A stretch of DNA of 20,298 bases from Asterionellopsis glacialis (Eukaryota; Bacillariophyta; Plagiogrammaphyceae; Rhaphoneidales; Asterionellopsidaceae), in assembly GCA_014885115.2 (NCBI GenBank), contig WKLE02006686.1:1-20298 (forward strand). The letters run 5' to 3'. Each line of letters begins with the position of its first letter. The first letter of the stretch is position 1. The notes under the pieces were generated by a model that was not told where the DNA came from, searched no databases, and saw nothing but the letters and a program-made list of their open reading frames with translations. Below, one piece after another: positions 374-18,818 of the stretch. A program made the translations under genes and the position numbers.

Positions 374-3301
374 ATGATGATGGACGATGGCAACAATAAT
401 AGCCATAATGATAGCAATGACAATGACAATGTCAATCATGTAGAATCATCATTAAACATTTTGAATTTGTCAAATGTAGATACAGCCTCCGAGGAATTTG
501 AAGACGAACATAGTTCCAATCACAGTCATTTTTTATCTCTTTCTGAAATTGATGAAAATGAGAGTCATCAAGATGACAACGACAGCGACCAAGGAGAAGA
601 AGAGCAAGACCAACCGCAACGACCGCAACAACCCCAAATACTGGCACGTATGGTAACCGCGTCTGAATCTGATTTAGGAAACAGCATCAATGGCAACAAT
701 GAAGATCACAATGAGGACGCATCCAATGAAAATCATCAAGAGAGTTCTATAGATGACGATAACGACGATAATGATGCTAGCATGCCACCCTTGATTGATA
801 ATGACGTTGTGAACGGACAATTACAAGAAACAGATAACAACAATACCGGTGTTGTATCAGATGAACAAGATAGCGATAATGACAGTTTGCCACTTTTGAT
901 GCAACAAGTGCAACGAGAATATGCTTCATCTGATGAGGAGGAGAATAGCAATGATGGCAGTTTGCCACGTTTGGAACAACGAAACCATGTTTCTGATGAT
1001 GACAATGACAATGACAATGATGATAGTGATTACTTTACAGGTAATTCCGTCCTTTCCAATACCACTAATGGTGATAATGGTGATAACAGTAGCAGCAATG
1101 ACGACGACGACTCTGATTCTAAATCTGATTCGGATATGAGTATGCCACCCTTAGAAAATCGTCCAGATTCAGAATCAGAATCTGATTCCGATTCCGATTC
1201 CAGTTCCGATTATTCTTATTACAATGGACGTTGGATCAAAAAATGGAAATTATCGATACAAACCTTTCCACAATTTCAACAATTATCAGAGGATTTAATG
1301 ATTCATGTATTGAGTTTTATTGCCGATGGACCTTTTGAATGTGATTTTGATGCACCTTTGGACTCCCGTCGCAAGACTGCTCACAAGGCGCATGGCGATT
1401 TGTTTCGTGAAAATGGTATTTTACCCACAAGTACTCTTACTACTACATTACCCTACGTGTCAAATCAATTTTATTCTCTGGTCCACACATCTGCATCCAA
1501 CTATTTTTGGAAATTAGTCTTGCAGCGACTTGTCACTCAAGAATCGACAAGTTCCTTATGGAAACAAGGTGTACTGCAACACATTATGGGTCATGATCAT
1601 TACAATAAACAACAACAACGACGACAACGACAACATTCCAACAATCATGATCTAGACGAGAATGATGGTGCTGATGAGAATGACAAATTATCCATAAAAT
1701 CATGTTTGCAACTTTTGGAACAATTTTCATTTCATGACAACGACAACTACAACAGTGGCAACACCGATAACAACAATGACAATGATAACGATAGAGATCC
1801 TCAAGAGACATCATCAACAACAAACGGCAAGGATGACAAGATACCAACATGTCAGCCACAACACACTACCGCGACCACTGGCAACCACCACCAGCACAAC
1901 CACGACAGCGACATTATCATCAATCCCAATAAGTATCATCAACTATTTCAATCAATTGTGACAAATCATATTACATTTACAGCACCATGTTTTTATATGC
2001 CAAGTGAAATTAGAATGAATGAACCATTTGGATTACATTTCTTTGAACCAAGATATAGATTATTAATACAACGTGTCATGGAAGGTTTTCCACCCGAAGC
2101 TAAAAGGGGGGAGGAAATACATCCAATTCTTGTCAATAATGATAATGATGATACTGCTAATAATAATGATCTAGTCAATGACGACAATGATAATGATCCA
2201 CCATCACCACGATCCACCCAACAAGGACAACAACGACGACAAGAAGAAAAGCAACTACGATACCCTGAATTTGTCTATGCCTATACTTCACCCTTGGCAA
2301 AAGATAGTCCTGCGTGTATCGTCCGTGTCGAAACATGCATTGTTCATCCAGATGGGTCCGCCGATGTATCCTTGGTACCCAAATCGTATGTACGATTGGT
2401 AAACATTACAAGATTACCAAATACCCAAGGATTACGACAAGTAACATGTGTCCGTATGAATGACCATGAATCACAAACAGAAGAAGAATTAGCTCTAAGT
2501 CGACGAATCCAACGTCCACCTGAATTGGATTTATTGGAATTATTTGCGGAACGTGAATTACTACAACGTCATCCTCCTCATGACGGCGATGATGATGATG
2601 ATTTTCATCATCCTTTAGGAGGAGGGGGTGGCGGTGCTATGGATGTACCTGATTTGGGTGTTCGTGGTACTATACGAGCTATATTAGCCTATTTGGCAGA
2701 ACGCGCCGAACATGATGATGATGATGAAGAAGATGATGATGACGACGACGACGATGAAAGGGTCAATGAAGAAGAAGGAAATAGACGTAATAACGGAAAC
2801 GACGATGACGACGATGACGACGACGACGATGATGAAGAAGATGTAATGGAAACATTTATACGCGAAGATGCTCATCGTATGTTTGAAGGTTTACATAATG
2901 TATTTCAGGAAGAAGAAAATGATGAGGACTACGACGATGGCGACTTTCATGACGAGGATGATGAAATAGTCTTTGATGATGAAGAAGACGACGACGATAT
3001 GCCTCTTTTAGGAACAAGGAGTGCTAGAAGTCACGATGGTAATGGTAACAACAACAATCAGGAGGAGGACGAAGAAGAACCACGAGATGACAATAATGTT
3101 GCTGGTACTGGACACCGACACCAGCAAGGCACAATACATGTAGAAATTCGATCTATGAATGGTCATCTTCAAGCTAGACACGAATTGAATAATTTGAATG
3201 ATTTAGGTAATTTACGACATTTGATCCTTCGTCGCGGTGATAATGACGTCGATGATGATGACGGCGACGAATCGTCTCAGGAACCAACTCCGGTGGATTG
3301 A
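374..3301 (+). CDS. F-box-like and LON-N-like domain protein with long acidic disordered regions
   Basis: This single-exon gene encodes 975 residues and starts at three consecutive ATG codons. Residues 1-290 are disordered and rich in Asp, Asn, Ser and Glu. Around 302-320 is an F-box-like helix (LSEDLMIHVLSFIADG), followed near 360-387 by a Trp/Tyr-rich helix. At about 537-572 comes a segment resembling the start of a LON substrate-binding domain (PSEIRMNEPFGLHFFEPRYRLL). The second half of that domain lies at about 630-697, after an acidic insert (VETCIVHPDGSADVSLVPKSYVRL). The C-terminal third again has long Asp/Glu runs, and the tail is weakly hydrophobic (HELNNLNDLGNLRHLI). F-box proteins recruit substrates to SCF ubiquitin ligases, and LON-N domains bind substrates in several ligase adaptors, so a ubiquitin adaptor role is inferred. 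The acidic repeats are coding GAY/AAY trinucleotide expansions and may vary in length between alleles. Confidence 0.75.
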   Translation: MMMDDGNNNSHNDSNDNDNVNHVESSLNILNLSNVDTASEEFEDEHSSNHSHFLSLSEIDENESHQDDNDSDQGEEEQDQPQRPQQPQILARMVTASESDLGNSINGNNEDHNEDASNENHQESSIDDDNDDNDASMPPLIDNDVVNGQLQETDNNNTGVVSDEQDSDNDSLPLLMQQVQREYASSDEEENSNDGSLPRLEQRNHVSDDDNDNDNDDSDYFTGNSVLSNTTNGDNGDNSSSNDDDDSDSKSDSDMSMPPLENRPDSESESDSDSDSSSDYSYYNGRWIKKWKLSIQTFPQFQQLSEDLMIHVLSFIADGPFECDFDAPLDSRRKTAHKAHGDLFRENGILPTSTLTTTLPYVSNQFYSLVHTSASNYFWKLVLQRLVTQESTSSLWKQGVLQHIMGHDHYNKQQQRRQRQHSNNHDLDENDGADENDKLSIKSCLQLLEQFSFHDNDNYNSGNTDNNNDNDNDRDPQETSSTTNGKDDKIPTCQPQHTTATTGNHHQHNHDSDIIINPNKYHQLFQSIVTNHITFTAPCFYMPSEIRMNEPFGLHFFEPRYRLLIQRVMEGFPPEAKRGEEIHPILVNNDNDDTANNNDLVNDDNDNDPPSPRSTQQGQQRRQEEKQLRYPEFVYAYTSPLAKDSPACIVRVETCIVHPDGSADVSLVPKSYVRLVNITRLPNTQGLRQVTCVRMNDHESQTEEELALSRRIQRPPELDLLELFAERELLQRHPPHDGDDDDDFHHPLGGGGGGAMDVPDLGVRGTIRAILAYLAERAEHDDDDEEDDDDDDDDERVNEEEGNRRNNGNDDDDDDDDDDDEEDVMETFIREDAHRMFEGLHNVFQEEENDEDYDDGDFHDEDDEIVFDDEEDDDDMPLLGTRSARSHDGNGNNNNQEEDEEEPRDDNNVAGTGHRHQQGTIHVEIRSMNGHLQARHELNNLNDLGNLRHLILRRGDNDVDDDDGDESSQEPTPVD

Positions 3302-6827: not shown

Positions 6828-8915
6828 ATGGTCCGGTTACTTTCAGTTTTTGCCATCTTGGCAAGCTTACAGTTTTCCTCTGCATTTTCACCCACACGAT
6901 CCTTCACGTACGTCTTTTTTACAAATTGAAAAATTATGATGTTCCTTGTTCATTTGAGTTTGTCAATTTATGCTAACAACAATCCATGATTGTCATTACT
7001 TGTACTACCACAGAGCCAGGCCTCATGTGGCTGTCACTCCCGCCCAGGTTTCTGTTCCTAGCAAGCCCAGTGTTAAATCTTCTGGTCTTTACATGAAAAG
7101 TGCAAATGCTGTAGAATCAAATAAGCAGTTTTCAAAGAAAAGAATGGCCGTCAAGGTAGGTGTAACAAAAAAATGACGATAAAAAAGATATCGTTTTTTA
7201 CTCTTTGATAAGGTGAAAACTTATTTCTTGTAATTCATTTCCATTTTTTTTATTCAAATCCAAAGATCTTTGGTCGTGCATGTGCAGCTTTTGCTGCTTT
7301 GGCCATGGTTACTACTGCACCAGCATTTGCAGCCAAATCATCGGCAGCTGTTGTCCCTGTCGAAGAACATTTGCACGTGGGACAAAAGGTGGCTAAATTC
7401 TTTCAAAAATTTGGACTTCCTGATGTTGCTGTTTTGGGACTCATTTCAGCCATGCCTGTTATTGAACTTCGTGGAGCCGTTCCAGTTGGATTTTGGATGG
7501 GATTACCTATTACTACTGTCCTTCCTGCCTGTGTGCTGGGGAATATGCTCCCCATTGTCCCACTTCTCTTTTTGCTTCGCAATGAGAAACTGAAAAAGCT
7601 TATGAAACCCATTCTTGATCGCGCTGAAAAGAAAACTGCCGAACTTGGAATGAGCTCCGAAGATAAACAATGGGCTTCCTTGGCTGCATTTGTTGGTATT
7701 CCTCTCCCCGGAACTGGAGCTTGGACTGGTGCTATGGGTGCCTTTTTGTTGGGAATGCCCATCAATGTGGCTCTTTCCTCTATTTTCACTGGTGTCGTTT
7801 CTGCTGGAGTTATCATGTCAGCAATTACCCTTGCCGGCAAGAAGGGTGGAATCGCGGCCTTGGCACTACTTGCTATCATTACTGGACAGGAGTTTTTGAA
7901 GGGAGAGAAAGATGTCGAGACCGAAGCGACGGTCGAGATTGAAGCTAAGGTTGAGACTGAAGCAAAGGTTGAGACCAAGAGTGATGAAAAGAAGGCTCAA
8001 GACTTCCTTGAGGCTGAACCCTACTGGGACCAATCTGCTGTTCCTGTCAATGTTTACAAGAACAAAGCCCCCTTCACTGGAAAGGTTGTTTCCACTAAGC
8101 GTATTGTGGGACCCAAGGCTACTGGTGAGACATGCCACATCGTTATTGACCACAAGGGCGATTTTCCGTACTGGGAGGGTCAATCTTGGGGTGTCATCCC
8201 CCCTGGTATTAACGAAAAGAACGGAAAGCCCCATTCTGTTCGTCTTTACTCGATTGCCTCTTCCCGTTACGGCGATGATATGACTGGAAACACTGGATCT
8301 CTCTGTGTTCGTCGTGCCACCTACTGGTGTCCCGAACTCAAGGCTGATGACCCAGCCAAGAAGGGTATCTGCTCCAACTTCCTTTGTGATACCCAACCTG
8401 GTGATGAAGTTCAAATGACTGGACCCGCCGGTAAGGTTATGCTCATGCCTGAGGAGGACCCTGCTACTGATTACATTATGGTTGCTACTGGTACTGGTAT
8501 TGCCCCCTACCGTGGCTTCATTCGTCGTCTTTTTGCTGAAGACACCCCCGCCGCTCGTGCTTACAAGGGCCAAGCTTGGTTGTTCCTTGGTGTTGCCAAC
8601 AGTGATGCTCTTCTTTATGATGATGAATTCCAAGAGGCCGCTGAGAAGGGTCTCCGTATTGACTACGCTCTTTCTCGTGAACAAGAAAACAAGAAGGGTG
8701 GTAAGATGTACATCCAAGATAAGGTGGAGGAATACGCCGATGAAGTCTTCGAGAAGCTGGAGAATGGTGCACACATTTACTTCTGTGGTTTGAAGGGAAT
8801 GATGCCTGGTATCCAAGATATGCTTAAGGAAGTTGCTGCCGGTAAGGGACTTGATTATGACGAATGGATCAAGGCTCTCAAGAAGAAGGGACAGTGGCAC
8901 GTTGAGGTGTACTAA
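6828..8915 (+). CDS. Plastid-targeted fusion: Sm_multidrug_ex (COG2426) membrane domain plus ferredoxin-NADP+ reductase
   Basis: Three exons (6828-6907, 7014-7155, 7266-8915) give 623 residues. Residues 1-20 are a signal peptide ending SSA|FSP, the diatom-type plastid signal, followed by a basic Ser-rich transit region to about 74. Residues 79-96 are a hydrophobic Ala-rich segment ending APAFA|AK, like a thylakoid transfer signal. Residues 125-285 match the Sm_multidrug_ex family, with ELRGAVPVG (141-148) and [11 protein letters not shown] (220-230) and several membrane helices. A charged 6-residue repeat linker (291-314) leads into a full plant-type FNR. It has RLYSIAS (FAD, 400-406), CSNFLC (443-448), [10 protein letters not shown] (NADP, 483-492), Ser544/Arg545 and Tyr556 for the 2'-phosphate, CGLKGM (581-586) and the C-terminal Tyr623 of WHVEVY. 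FNR transfers electrons from ferredoxin to NADP+. No Met lies between residue 258 and the FAD domain, so FNR cannot start separately. The fusion architecture is seen directly; transport by the membrane domain is only inferred from its family. Confidence 0.92.
7914..7985 (+). repeat. Coding 18-bp tandem repeat in the linker of the FNR fusion
   Basis: Four consecutive 18-bp units (starting at 7914, 7932, 7950 and 7968) encode [18 protein letters not shown] and VETKSD. Units two and three are closest to each other. The repeat forms a highly charged, probably helical or extended spacer between the last membrane helix and the FNR domain. The decay is mainly at silent sites and at the outer units. 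Confidence 0.85.
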
Positions 8916-9068
8916 GATAGGGATACAAAATCTTAGCACACATTGAAAACTTTTCATGTACTTCACGAACTCGAGATTGGCAATAGCTATAGTGTTTTCT
9001 TTCAAATGCGAACAACGAATGCCTTTCAAGCTTATTTATTAGATTTACTTTGGTCAGGGATTAACTAT

Positions 9069-12000
9069 CTAGAAATCAACTGTAGCGGCTCTTGATCTAG
9101 GTTCTGAAATAATAGTATCATTATCATGTGTATAATTGTCATCCATCACCCTATTATCATCGCTGACCTTATTTAATCTTTTTCTATTTTTCTTGCGTAA
9201 TAAACTTTTAAATAATGGCTTCTTTTCCTTCTTAACATCGTCACTAGTACTCTTGGGAAATCGATTTGCATAAGAAGGAGGCGAAAATAATGGTCCAGTA
9301 CTGTCATGTTTTCGTTCTCCTTCTTCCGCCTCTTCATCGTCGCCTTCTACGATTGTTTCATTCTCTCTGAAGAAGTGATCTCGAGAGGTTGTTGTGGCTG
9401 CAGTTGTACTTTCTACACCACTAATACCTAATGGTGACACCATAAAGCCAGAAGTTAGAACTTCACCATCAGATACAGTTCTCCCTCTTGGCATTTCAAA
9501 TGATCTTGTTTTTCTTGTCGGGTCCTCTACTGAGGTCTTTGTCTTATTACTGGCTTTCTTGGCGGAAGCATTAAACAAAAACAATGTAGTCAACAAAAAT
9601 ATAGCGGTATGCACCAATGCAAATTTGGATGTTTCAATTGCATTGAAACGCCATGATACAAATTCAACTCTACCCTCTCCATGAGCAATAGCATCTTGTA
9701 CAAAAGATTTCCATGTATTTTGATAGGTTGATACAATCCAAAGAATGATAGCTTCAATTGTTCTTCCTAGCCAGTGTGAACGGATAGCTATTGAGGATAA
9801 CATGTCTATGATTGCTGTTGTCAATGCTGTTGCCTTATCTACGGAAAACATTAATGTATGGAAACCCCAGTACACTGTATTTTCCGCGAGTGATACTGCA
9901 GGTGAAACGAATGGAACCATATCGACAATTTTCGCCATAACTGTAGTATACAATCCAACGATCATATCTTTGGTAACATGTGTTGTATGTAACGTATACC
10001 AAAGCATAAATCTTGACCAATAACTTGCCAAGGCTTTTGCGATACTAAAAAGTACAATCCCAATTGAGAATAAGGCTACAGGTATCTGAAGTTGATTACT
10101 GTAATACTTTTTCGACTTCCCGCCTGTCTTGCCACCCAATTCCAATGATTCAAAGGCATACACAAGTGCAACTTTGCAACATACAAAATGTACAGCAGCG
10201 CAACTTGATAAATATAGGATGGTACCGACATCTCGTAACATGGATACCCACCATTTGTTAGATGGTGATGTCAAGATCGGTGGTGATATCTTAACGATAG
10301 ATGTAAAGTATAATAGGATCACCATGAAACCGAACGAACCAATCATAATTTGATATCGTCGTGCAGGACTATAACAATGCAACGAAAATAGAAATCTCGA
10401 TAAGTTCTCTGTTCCTTTTTTCATGGCTGACTCTGTATCATCATCATCCATAATATCACAACCTAATTCACGATATTGTATTTCCTTCTTTCGTTTCCGT
10501 TTGATGTCTTTTAATCTATGTAATCGTTCCTTTTGTTGCGGTGTTAATGATTTGCGTTTTAAACGATTTGCGGCTCTCATACGTGCTGCCATAATCTTTT
10601 GATTCTTACGGCGTTGTGTTCTAGCTTCAATTTCATGTAAATAACTTGATATAGGATTTTTACTCCACGTTGACATGGAAGATAAATCACTCACTTGAGA
10701 TGCAGTATCATGATTATTGGTGAGATCATTATCATTCAAATAAGGATATTCAGAGATGTTTGATGGCGTTCTGGCAGAAATGATACGATCATCACTTGAA
10801 GAAGGAAGTTCAGTATCACTTCGTGAAAGTCTTTGTCCTCTTCCTTCATCACTAATACTCATGTATCCACCTTCATCAGATCCATACAATAAAAAGTCTT
10901 GTTCCTGTTGTTCATCTGTCAAATCCAAGGCGGGAACAGGTAACATTTCCCATCCATTTTCTTTACAAAAGGATTCAAATTTGGGATATAACCAATTTTT
11001 ATAAAATTGATGCTCTTGTCTCATCCGTCTCGCATGTACATTTTGCACGGGATGTTTTTGTACCTTACGAGCTGCACCTTGAAGTTTGTTCAACAGTATA
11101 CCAACCATTTTTTTCATGATGAATTCTAATAAGGACTGTGGTACAAAATCTAAATTTGGATTGACATTGGAAATCAGTTTCGTATGCGCCTCCGTAGGTG
11201 ACAATACTTCAACCATGGCATCAAAATTTTTGATGGTCATCCGTCCAGCACCTAACCGTGTAGGTACGGGTGGTATATCTTCCATGGGTAATGCCGGATC
11301 TTCTGATAAGAATGTATCCTGTGGTGGCAGCAGTCCATTCGTAGTATCATTATCATCATCAGTAGTAGCATTACTACTCCCAGGTTTACGATCTGCCACA
11401 CCTTGTCCTACCAATAAAATTGTACCATTTTCATTCATACAATCACATCCAATCGCACGGAATACACCATCTCTCATTAAACCAAAGTTGGGTAGCCCCA
11501 CTACCATCCAACCCAGAACATCTAATTTGTCCAATTGCTTGATACTGAGGGAGGATGTACAAAAGGGTGCCCATTTGTAATACAAATCTACTTCCTTCAA
11601 TACAGCTATTTGTTCAAAGAGTGGTACATTGCTGACTTTGCCTTCCAGTTTAATACTCAAGGAGGAGTCAGGTTCACGACGATAATAAGTTGTAATACCA
11701 AATAATGTTTGAGACAAGGTCCAATTATCATTTTCAGATAAATTATGTTTTGCTCGTTCAAACAAACGCACACGATTTCGTAATTTATCAATTTCATTTT
11801 GTTTGGACATCCACAGAGTTTGAGCAGCTTGATAATCGCGTTCCTTTGCTGCATTTGCCGCCGCCGCAGCGGGGGATATGGGTAGTGGTGTTGCTTTCGA
11901 AGGACGGCGATTACTACGCCTATGGAATAAACCTCCTTTCTTTTGACTTTGATTTGACACATTTGTTCGTGGGGGTGTGGATGGTGCGGTTGGTGATGAT

Positions 12001-15038: not shown

Positions 15039-16676
15039 ATGAAGTTCCTTTGCGTCGCCTCTCTTCTTGCCACTGCTGCTGCATTCACTAACTCTGGTGG
15101 TGCTTTCACTGCCTACTCTCCATCTGTTGGAGAGAGGTCCGTCAACAATGTTTTCGCCGATTCGTCCGCTCACCGCACCCGTAAGGCCACCATTGTCATG
15201 GACGGAAAGGCTAACGGTAAGTTCTACGTTGATTTAGTACTGATGTTCGTCAACTGAGATCTCTTACGTACCAAAAAAAAACAGCAACCCGGAAAACACG
15301 TACTCAAGACCTACACGTTTGATGTACTGGAGAAAGTATGGTAGTTGCCAGATCTGAATCTTGCATGCGCACGTAGACCCTTGATGGGTTGCAATGGAAG
15401 GCCGAGAATTTGACGGTAAACGCAATCTCATAGTGAACACAAAGATTATGTTATGAAAGCAAATGGTTTGAGTTCAATCAGCGGTTCGAAAGGAATATAA
15501 TTTGATTAGGAACAAATTTTTGGCAGGACAACATTGGAACGAGAAAGCACGGTTGACCTGGAGGGTACAGTAACGGGACAAACATAGAGGAAACATTCCT
15601 CGAACACAATCTGCAATATAAAGAGATCCAGTGGAGCCTGAACATTTGTTGTTCGATTTTATTGTCATCAGACTATCACGCTAAAAAACGAAAATGTATA
15701 TCACTCTGTTCTAATTTTTCACCCTTTTTTTCTCTGCAATTTAGCCATCCGTGACCGCATCGTTACCGTTAAGAACACAAAGAAGATCACCATGGCCATG
15801 AAGCTTGTCGCTGCCGCCAAGGTCCGTCGTGCCCAGGATGCTGTCCTTGCCACCCGTCCCTTCTCTGAGACTCTTCAATCCGTCTTCGGAGGCCTCATCA
15901 ACCGTCTTGGTTCCGAGGCCATGGACCTTCCCCTCCTCACCCAACGTGAGGTCAAGAAGGCCACCCTTCTTGTTATCACCGGTGACCGTGGTCTTTGCGG
16001 TGGTTACAACTCCTTCATGATCAAGAAGGCAGAAGCCCGTTTCAAGGAGCTCGAGGGCCAAGGAATTGATGTTGATATGATCCTTGTCGGAAAGAAGGGT
16101 ATCGCTTACTTTGAACGTCGTGACTACCCTATCCGCAAGACCTTCGAGTGTGGACAGAACCCCGATGCCAAGCAAGGACTTGCCATCTCCGAGGAAGTCT
16201 TGAACACCTTCCTTGGTGGAGAAACTGATGCTGTCGAACTTTTCTACACCAAGTTTGTTTCTCTCATTGCCTCCACTCCTTCTGTCCGTACTTTGGTTCC
16301 TTTCTCTGCTTCCGAGATCACCAACAAGGGTGATGAAGTTTTCCAACTCACCTCTGATAACGGTGACTTCGGTGTTGAACGTACCGAACTTGATGTTGCT
16401 GAACCCCAAGAATTCCCCAATGACATGATCTTCGAACAAGACCCCGTCCAAATCGTCAACTCTATCCTTCCCCTTTACCTCAATGGACAAATCCTCCGTA
16501 CCCTCCAAGAATCTGTTGCCTCCGAACTTGCCGCCCGTATGCAGTCCATGCAATCTGCCAGTGATAACGCCGGTGCTCTTGCCAAGGATCTTTCCTTGCA
16601 GTACAATCGTGCCCGTCAGGCCGCTGTCACCCAAGAAATTCTTGAGATTGTTGCTGGTGCCCAGGCACTTGAGTAA
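15039..16676 (+). CDS. atpC: Plastid ATP synthase CF1 gamma subunit precursor
   Basis: Two exons (15039-15216 and 15745-16676) join in phase to give 369 residues; the 528-nt intron shows no gene of its own. Residues 1-15 form a signal peptide ending AAA|FTN, the diatom plastid motif, followed by a Ser-rich transit region. The mature protein begins with the gamma N-terminal helix (AIRDRIVTVKNTKKITMAMKL) and ends with the conserved C-terminal helix (TQEILEIVAGAQALE). GDRGLCGGYN and FEQDPVQIVNSILPLYLN are also typical. Gamma is the rotating shaft that couples thylakoid proton flow to ATP synthesis. Around residues 247-262 the sequence reads SASEITNKGDEVFQL, so the plant redox insert with its two regulatory cysteines is absent and no thioredoxin switch of that kind is possible. 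Codon use is strongly biased, suggesting high expression. A long antisense open frame over exon 2 is a by-product of that bias. Confidence 0.97.
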
Positions 16677-17429: not shown

Positions 17430-18818
17430 ATGAACCATCAAGTAGTAACTGAAGGAAAAACCTCAAGCCGACGTTGTGTGCGATGTGCACTGCACTTATT
17501 ACTTCTCGCAGCATCCACCAATGCAGCTATCCATCGACCCCAAAGTACTGCTTCTGCAGCCTTTGTCGGCCACAATCGTCAGCACCGATACTCCGTACCT
17601 AAATCCTTCACTACTGTCTTTGCATCGCCGGATGGCAATGATATTAGTAATGGAGAAATCTACCGAAAAGACGACAATGACCTCATCAAGAAGAATGGAT
17701 CTAACGGGGTATCCTCTAATGGTTCGTCAACAAACGGTGCAACATCAAACAATAATGGCGCAAGTGCCAATGGGAAAACGAATGAATGGGGAATTCCTGA
17801 TAGTGATTCGTTAAAACCATTATTCACAGGAAAACCTCAAGACGCTTTACCGAATGGTGGCCGTATTACCTTGGTCGGATCGGGACCAGGTGATCCAGAC
17901 CTACTTACTATGAAGGCTCACAAACTCTTGACGGATCCTGATTGCCTTATCATTGCTGATCGACTTGTATCACAAGAGATTTTAGATATTATTCCTGGTG
18001 AAATTAAAGTTGCAAGAAAATTACCAGGATGTCAAGCCTTAGCTCAAGAAGAAATTTATTGGTGGGCTTATCAAGGATTGGCAGAAGGAAAACATGTTAT
18101 TCGTCTTAAAATTGGCGACCCATTTGTATTTGGTCGAGGTGGAGAAGAAGTTTTGAAATTTCGACGATTTGGTGTAGAAGCCGCAGTCACACCGGTAAGT
18201 CTTTAGGAACGGTGCGAGAATAGAAGTACGAGCACTGAAAAAAAAACTCACAATTTCTTTTAATTTTTCAAATGAAATCAGGGTGTTTCTGCTGCATTTT
18301 CTGCCCCATTGCTTGGGTCGATTCCAGTTACACATCGCGGTATTTCCAATCAGGTTGTTATGTGCACAGGTTATGGACGGTAAGTAGCGAATGAAATCGA
18401 GAAGGATGTTTTTGCTTGGCGAAAGGAGCTTTTCCTCATTCCTTCCTCGTTTGATATCTCCTGTTCAATCTATTGCAGGGAAAATACATCGCCGGACTTA
18501 ATTCAATATCACAAGGAGCAAACAATTGTATTCTTGATGGCAGTTGGACGACTTCGAGAATTGTGCGAAAGACTCATCACATTGGCTGGATACCCCTCAA
18601 AGACACCCGTGGGGATTGTTGAACGAGCTGGTTGTCCCGATCAACGGACTGTCGTTGGGAATATGGAAACTATTGCTGACCTTGCTGAAAAGCATGATAT
18701 CAAACCACCCAGTACCATTGTTGTTGGTGAGGTTGTAAACGTCCTCTTAGAAGAGGACAACGAGACTGGAAACCATGTCACAGGATTGATTCAAAATATG
18801 ACAGTATCACATGCTTAA
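17430..18818 (+). CDS. Uroporphyrinogen-III C-methyltransferase (SUMT), probably plastid-targeted
   Basis: Three exons (17430-18194, 18282-18379, 18479-18818) splice in frame to 400 residues. Residues about 20-31 are hydrophobic (ALHLLLLAASTNAA), followed by STASAAFVG near 39-47, which resembles the ASAF plastid motif but lies unusually far from the hydrophobic core. A Ser/Asn/Gly-rich linker (about 77-112) precedes the catalytic domain, which starts near 145. Motifs are VGSGPGDPDLLT (SAM-binding loop), RLKIGDPFVFGRGGEE, PGVSAAFSAPLLGSIPVTHRG and TGYGRE. The enzyme uses SAM to methylate uroporphyrinogen III twice, giving precorrin-2, the entry to siroheme for nitrite and sulfite reductase. 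It is a single-domain SUMT without fused dehydrogenase or synthase parts. RLKIGDP differs from the commoner RLKGGDP of bacteria. Confidence 0.93.

Follow-up and report, generated by a model that had tools for sequence, protein, structure and literature searches.

Where ferredoxin-NADP+ reductase (FNR) resides is a long-standing question in photosynthesis. In plants, the enzyme is placed at plastid membranes by separate anchors, TROL and Tic62, and in the phycobilisome-linked CpcD-PetH proteins of cyanobacteria (NF058510, NF045929), a natural N-terminal addition fixes FNR to a photosynthetic structure. An engineered counterpart has been built in Chlamydomonas, where PsaF-FNR carries the enzyme covalently on a membrane protein, on the stromal side, through a 9-aa linker; according to the section headings of that study, it shows slower NADPH formation and more cyclic activity under anoxia (PMC11912148), so the position of FNR can matter.

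Here we analyze a window of 20,298 nucleotides (the whole stretch of DNA under study) from the diatom Asterionellopsis glacialis, which encodes an FNR fused to a COG2426 membrane domain and would thus hold permanently at the membrane, in a natural protein, an enzyme usually deemed soluble or loosely docked. Databases already label such proteins "ferredoxin--NADP(+) reductase", and two petH genes are listed for T. oceanica (PMC5570362), so the genes themselves are known; among the open-access papers listed in literature searches, no title or abstract opening describes a COG2426-FNR fusion or discusses its architecture.

Gene structure and distribution of the fusion

The gene comprises three exons joined by GT-AG introns (Table 1). 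The frame runs unbroken from exon 1 into exon 2, and the introns following exons 1 and 2 lie in phases 2 and 0, as in a paralogue on contig C1486 described below. The spliced product has 623 aa, ordered as a plastid-type leader, a COG2426/PF06695 membrane domain, a linker and a complete plant-type FNR. The first-pass annotation had read the protein from one uninterrupted exon; this stretch is indeed a single open frame (7266-8915, 549 codons plus stop), but it is the third exon, with two more upstream. The sole leader does sit at the front of the membrane domain, as had been proposed, its signal peptide and transit region being supplied by those two exons.

Table 1. Coordinates of features in the window
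Feature	Position	Strand	Description
Asp/Glu/Asn-rich frame	374-3301	+	975 aa with a very high content of Asp, Glu and Asn; nothing matched in Pfam at E 0.001
Exon 1	6828..6907	+	Start codon, ER-type signal peptide (22 protein letters not shown), AF motif (SSAFSP); donor GTACGT
Exon 2	7014..7155	+	Transit-peptide-like region, end ...KKRMAVK; acceptor CCACAG, donor GTAGGT
Exon 3	7266..8915	+	Membrane domain, linker, FNR and stop codon; acceptor ends AAAG
Third leader part	7266..7331	+	Ala-rich and hydrophobic up to its final AFA-A; similar to a thylakoid transfer signal
COG2426/PF06695 membrane domain	7377..7901	+	Matched by Pfam over 7464-7814; two helix pairs of re-entrant-like form, plus two to three membrane spans
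Charged linker	7896..8003	+	36 aa
Near-identical DNA stretch	7992..8919	+	97.1% identity to the C1486 FNR gene; breaks off abruptly within the linker and immediately after the stop codon
Plant-type ferredoxin-NADP+ reductase	8004..8912	+	FAD and NADP domains, C-terminal Tyr
ATP synthase gamma subunit frame	15792-16676	+	Downstream of the fusion
Uroporphyrinogen-III C-methyltransferase-like gene	17430-18206	+	Part of the gene; downstream of the fusion

Within the 549-aa frame, Pfam places PF06695 (Sm_multidrug_ex) at residues 67-183 (E 1.6e-31, profile positions 1-121 of 121), and its 109.9 bits against a curated cut-off of 30.7 make the domain a member of COG2426/PF06695. PF00175 (NAD_binding_1) follows at residues 405-517 (E 3.2e-23). 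Residues 258-549 match maize root FNR 1jb9 in a PDB sequence search (E 7.8e-131); the FNR part spans the FAD and NADP domains at full length and ends in ...HVEVY, with the aromatic C-terminal residue of plant-type FNR. The cyanobacterial PetH model NF045929 (NCBIfam) matches with E 1.2e-106 and 357 bits, under its cut-off of 600. These Pfam and PDB matches, the unbroken frame and the relatives bear out the original reading of a COG2426 membrane domain fused to a complete FNR with a C-terminal Tyr. A profile search of the genome (40.3 Mb, 1503 contigs) returned a single PF06695 match, in the fusion.

Searching with the exon 3 protein yielded 2129 relatives, and a check for joint PF06695 and FNR architectures, as suggested in the first-pass annotation, found both PF06695 and PF00175 in all of the best 120 of these. 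The names that appear among the best 120 include Chaetoceros, Ditylum, Leptocylindrus, Dactyliosolen, Seminavis, Nitzschia, Pseudo-nitzschia, Fistulifera, Epithemia, Corethron and Triparma; all named ones are diatoms except the parmalean Triparma. The fused relatives include MMETSP records (for example P0015, P0025, P0048, P0059 and P0095), and MMETSP is a transcriptome project, so mature mRNAs would span the linker. Linker parsing was attempted on 121 proteins (the 120 relatives and the window protein), four of which remained unparsed. In the 117 used, the linker has a median length of 10 aa (range 6-49), and a Met falls in the linker region of four (P0056, P0078, P0079, P0085); as first remarked on at this locus, the stretch from the last helix to the FNR core contains no Met, both here and in 113 of the 117 parsed fused proteins.

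The recurrence of both domains in 120 of the 120 listed relatives (of 2129) rules out a sequence artefact or a chance joining. We likewise consider an error of assembly or gene modelling extremely improbable: an assembler might be misled by the near-identical second FNR gene, the one point found in favor of this explanation, but the listed relatives come from many sources and species, the frame is unbroken and the splice-site phases match those of the paralogue.

The second FNR gene and exchange of the catalytic module

It was initially claimed that FNR can reach the plastid only as a tethered protein. The second gene that the first-pass annotation recommended looking for is present on contig C1486 (11027-11905, minus strand), and encodes an FNR protein 99% identical to that of the fusion, without COG2426. 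Its 419-aa product has its own leader, similar to that of the fusion, followed by a single marginal hydrophobic segment, and would constitute a soluble or single-pass-anchored form. The gene has two introns in the same order, in phases 2 and 0, with first exons of 89 and 55 bases versus 80 and 142 in the fusion gene. Tethering is therefore not the sole way into the plastid, and the fusion is not the sole FNR isoform. The other four protein matches in the genome, 30-31% identical over partial length, were taken as other reductases rather than as additional plant-type FNRs. A PsbU-family exon (10355-10543, plus strand) lies approximately 0.5 kb downstream of the short-form gene, in convergent orientation.

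The short-form search returned 4435 proteins, the best 120 of which all carry PF00175 only. In these and the paralogue, the leader opens with a signal peptide, continues through KRKxALK and a hydrophobic stretch, and closes with AxA-K; the AxA is found in 116 of the 121, three could not be parsed and the remaining two read AFAASK and AFAAGK. An acidic stretch and then a second hydrophobic segment follow the AxA. The 15-residue Kyte-Doolittle value of this segment is 1.6 or more in 105 of the 108 scoreable short forms, and the best such value inside the FNR domain of the C1486 paralogue is 1.15. On the biological hydrophobicity scale, the segment of the paralogue scores about +0.5, against a median of 1.2 (range 0.1-4.6), marginal values that make a real membrane span in the short form uncertain. 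The AlphaFold model of one short form (P0121) is poor (mean pLDDT 49.9), with low-confidence helices at 41-63 and 87-107. Many diatoms appear to hold a covalent tether beside a near-identical untethered or weakly anchored FNR.

The two genes of A. glacialis also resemble each other at the DNA level, the near-identical stretch of Table 1 being the sole BLASTN match between the window and the 10 kb around the C1486 gene. Over 305 codons, the long and short FNR differ at 24, of which 22 are synonymous and two replacement differences (dS 0.12, dN 0.003), and only one of the 24 lies past the 193rd codon. We read this stretch as a gene-conversion tract, with differences clustered as patchy conversion would give.

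To place the two modules among their relatives, 242 FNR proteins (240 matches and the two of the genome) were considered; seven unparsed proteins and nine outside 295-320 aa were removed, and the resulting 226 rows were reduced to 146 by identity, with two restored, and 82 were used in IQ-TREE. The FastTree phylogeny of the 226 rows requires 33 changes between long and short labels, and the IQ-TREE phylogeny (41 long, 41 short) requires 16, at least four of them forced by starred branches. None of 500 label shuffles gave as few as 16 (mean 27.7): long and short forms are partly clustered, yet do not make up two clades. The long and short FNR of the window genome form a group with two short relatives (100/100), and those of Seminavis with one more long protein (96/93); in Nitzschia inconspicua, the long form is nearest to long forms and the short form to short ones (FastTree). 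Forcing all long forms into one clade costs 206 log-likelihood units (AU p 1.6e-7), and this rejection weakens to an AU p of 0.034 on the 76 rows that exclude the window pair, the Seminavis pair, P0121 and P0122. These patterns indicate that the FNR module has been homogenized between two N-terminal "addresses" in at least some lineages, those in which conversion is clear.

Unfused relatives and origin of the anchor

The membrane domain was traced with a Triparma query in a length-limited search, which favors unfused or partial proteins, and the best 120 of 6688 matches were analyzed. Taxonomy was looked up for Triparma, Fibrocapsa, Detonula, Chrysophaeum, Cyclostephanos, Corethron, Leptocylindrus, T. 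pseudonana, Tribonema, Skeletonema and C. atomus. Among these best 120, unfused COG2426 proteins occur in the named non-diatoms Ectocarpus, Discosporangium, Tribonema, Chrysophaeum, Chrysoparadoxa (partial) and Fibrocapsa, and so in brown (Ectocarpus and Discosporangium), xanthophyte, pelagophyte and raphidophyte algae; the proteins of these named ochrophytes end soon after the third hydrophobic segment. Unfused diatom forms were found in Thalassiosira exigua, of the Thalassiosirales, in two species of Skeletonema, and in Detonula, Cyclotella, Cyclostephanos and Nitzschia sp. Nitz4, amounting to five Thalassiosirales genera and one Nitzschia among the matches listed. Some other entries, such as P0241, P0250, P0259 and Chaetoceros neogracile P0285, are cut fusions that run on into FNR. 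Given its unfused COG2426 proteins, the tether seems dispensable in several Thalassiosirales, which appear to have lost it; diatoms would thus offer a ready comparison of the same module at different addresses, with and without the fusion, in tractable algae.

A membrane-domain tree of 57 sequences, 35 of them fused and 22 unfused, requires seven label changes, at least three of them forced by starred branches. The non-diatom unfused proteins fall outside and the diatom unfused proteins among the fused ones, the Nitz4 form joining a set of five fused pennate proteins (96/79). Among the environmental sequences, the fused P0112 branches outside the remaining fused forms, on a very long branch, and two unfused environmental proteins within fused groups (P0244, P0245) may be cut gene models. 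The simplest account would be one fusion before the split of diatoms and Parmales with fissions later, on a backbone of weak support; the unfused COG2426 of Thalassiosirales and Nitzschia perhaps arose by fission. Before the fusion, the anchor probably existed as a plastid membrane protein of its own, and it became independent again in some diatoms.

Among prokaryotes, the listed relatives of the ochrophyte COG2426 protein (at least 80 loci, L023-L102) are mostly from Clostridia, with no cyanobacterium named among the matches listed. In nine, the two motifs were not seen together in one frame, and these were left out; the remaining 71 provide no precedent for a C-terminal fusion (0/71), all stopping 45-82 residues (median 52) past the PGTGAW-type motif. 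Most of these 71 proteins seem to be without the third hydrophobic segment of the plastid ones.

Leader, topology and comparison with described systems

The AF motif in the first exon of the fusion gene is one that complex plastids use. The hydrophobic stretch that opens exon 3 has a hydropathy of 1.74 over 19 residues, and an AxA precedes the membrane domain in 82 of 82 testable fused proteins, in a test that is permissive and was run on Ala-rich sequence. In the same genome, the leader of PsbO contains SAFAP and, further on, a hydrophobic stretch ending AQA, and that of PsbU a hydrophobic stretch ending ANA; in contrast, two phosphoribulokinase (PRK)-family leaders pass from an AF-type motif straight to the enzyme, without a hydrophobic AxA stretch. 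The fusion leader thus resembles in style those of the lumenal PsbO and PsbU, and is unlike the stromal PRK-family leaders. The two PRK-family matches lie approximately 1.5 kb apart on contig C573 (26592-27194 and 28700-29302, minus strand), both with AF-type leaders, and are perhaps a tandem duplication.

The AlphaFold model of the fusion is modest overall (pLDDT 73.2, pTM 0.46), with block means of 74-96 over residues 41-210 in the membrane domain and values below 50 at residues 216-260, in the linker region. Helices are modelled at 53-62/67-77, 82-104, 132-144/152-161 and 166-212, the last as a single 47-residue helix, and their predicted order would fit the VTT/DedA pattern of two repeats of amphipathic helix, re-entrant loop and span. 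PF06695 and PF09335 are described as kin (PMC7818093), and PF06695 is related to DedA proteins tied to transport or lipid movement (PMC7818093 and a preprint, PMC13174344). An alignment of 15 unfused COG2426 proteins found no PDB sequence match at E 1, and fold searches of the whole fusion returned FNR matches only, which filled the lists. The third hydrophobic segment reaches a 15-residue Kyte-Doolittle value of at least 1.6 in 96 of the 117 fused proteins and stays below it in 21. With three spans, an N-terminus in the lumen would leave FNR in the stroma; should the final hydrophobic stretch not cross the membrane by itself, FNR and the N-terminus would share one side, contrary to the lumenal-signal reading.

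On these sequence features, we consider it reasonably likely that the fusion is a natural membrane-tethered FNR, part of a two-gene catalytic module, at the stromal face of what is probably the thylakoid. The precursor would enter the plastid through its three-part leader, the VTT/DedA-related COG2426 domain would insert into one of the inner membranes of the plastid, in all likelihood that of the thylakoid, and FNR would be held at the stromal side, separated from the last span by between a few and a few tens of residues, where it would take ferredoxin electrons and make NADPH at the membrane. Two genes carry the one catalytic module, with a multi-span anchor in the long form, and a short leader plus one weak hydrophobic segment in the short form. 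Since conversion keeps the modules near-identical here, the forms should differ in place, not in chemistry. A covalent anchor might also, as first proposed, alter how electrons are divided between linear and cyclic flow.

The anchored enzyme could instead reside in the inner envelope, providing reducing power for envelope lipid or pigment enzymes or for import rather than serving thylakoid electron flow. The kinship with DedA proteins of transport or lipid movement would suit such a role, as would the precedent of Tic62, an envelope-linked FNR partner. The Arabidopsis homologue At2g02590 also appears in a plastid transporter table (PMC2246286). We nonetheless deem an envelope location quite unlikely in view of the thylakoid-like leader end, which is shared with PsbO and PsbU of the same genome and missing in the two PRK-family leaders.

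Some diatom FNR behaves as soluble. For T. pseudonana, a member of Thalassiosirales, FNR activity was measured in soluble extracts and FNR was detected on 2D gels (PMC5299434), and a reported interaction in Asterionella links GAPDH with FNR and a CP12 (cited in PMC7992989). In a T. pseudonana cryo-tomography study, FNR was placed as a hypothetical model in density on photosystem I (PMC8331139). These soluble extracts would also be expected if the fusion were a precursor cut after import, releasing a COG2426 membrane protein and, separately, a soluble FNR, with their joining serving only to couple expression. The junction QDFLEAxPYWDQ, common to long and short forms, points the same way, as does the apparent sufficiency of unfused COG2426 and short-form FNR in Thalassiosirales. 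Gene conversion, however, explains the junction identity too, linker length varies widely, and no cleavage motif was recognized on inspection of the sequences; we regard cleavage as unlikely. Returning to the tethered enzyme, a more speculative extension, which we think improbable, is that diatoms make no freely soluble FNR: both genes would insert the enzyme through thylakoid-type leaders, by a multi-span VTT/DedA-like anchor or a single weak span, and with conversion keeping the module identical, only membrane position, together with any transport or lipid activity of the anchor, would set electron fate.

Compared with described systems, At2g02590 and the unfused ochrophyte COG2426 proteins share the membrane domain and, in ochrophytes with complete leaders, a similar leader style, but they end after a short tail, with no FNR; through the fusion, the poorly understood COG2426 family gains a redox partner as a functional clue. 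The anchor of CpcD-PetH is a soluble linker domain that docks to phycobilisomes, whereas that of the fusion is an integral membrane domain of another family: NF058510 matches the fusion (E 5.4e-103) only from model position 81 on, with 344.8 bits against a cut-off of 635, and exon 3 has no Pfam match to the CpcD linker domain. PF06695 and PF00175 are its only Pfam matches at E 0.001, with neither a rhodanese domain, as in TROL, nor a Tic62-type NAD-binding domain among them. TROL and Tic62 likewise place FNR at plastid membranes, but as separate, non-covalent binders, while the anchor of the fusion is covalent and belongs to a different Pfam family. We know of no photosystem partner of the diatom anchor. 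The engineered PsaF-FNR is artificial and sits on photosystem I; the diatom fusion is natural.
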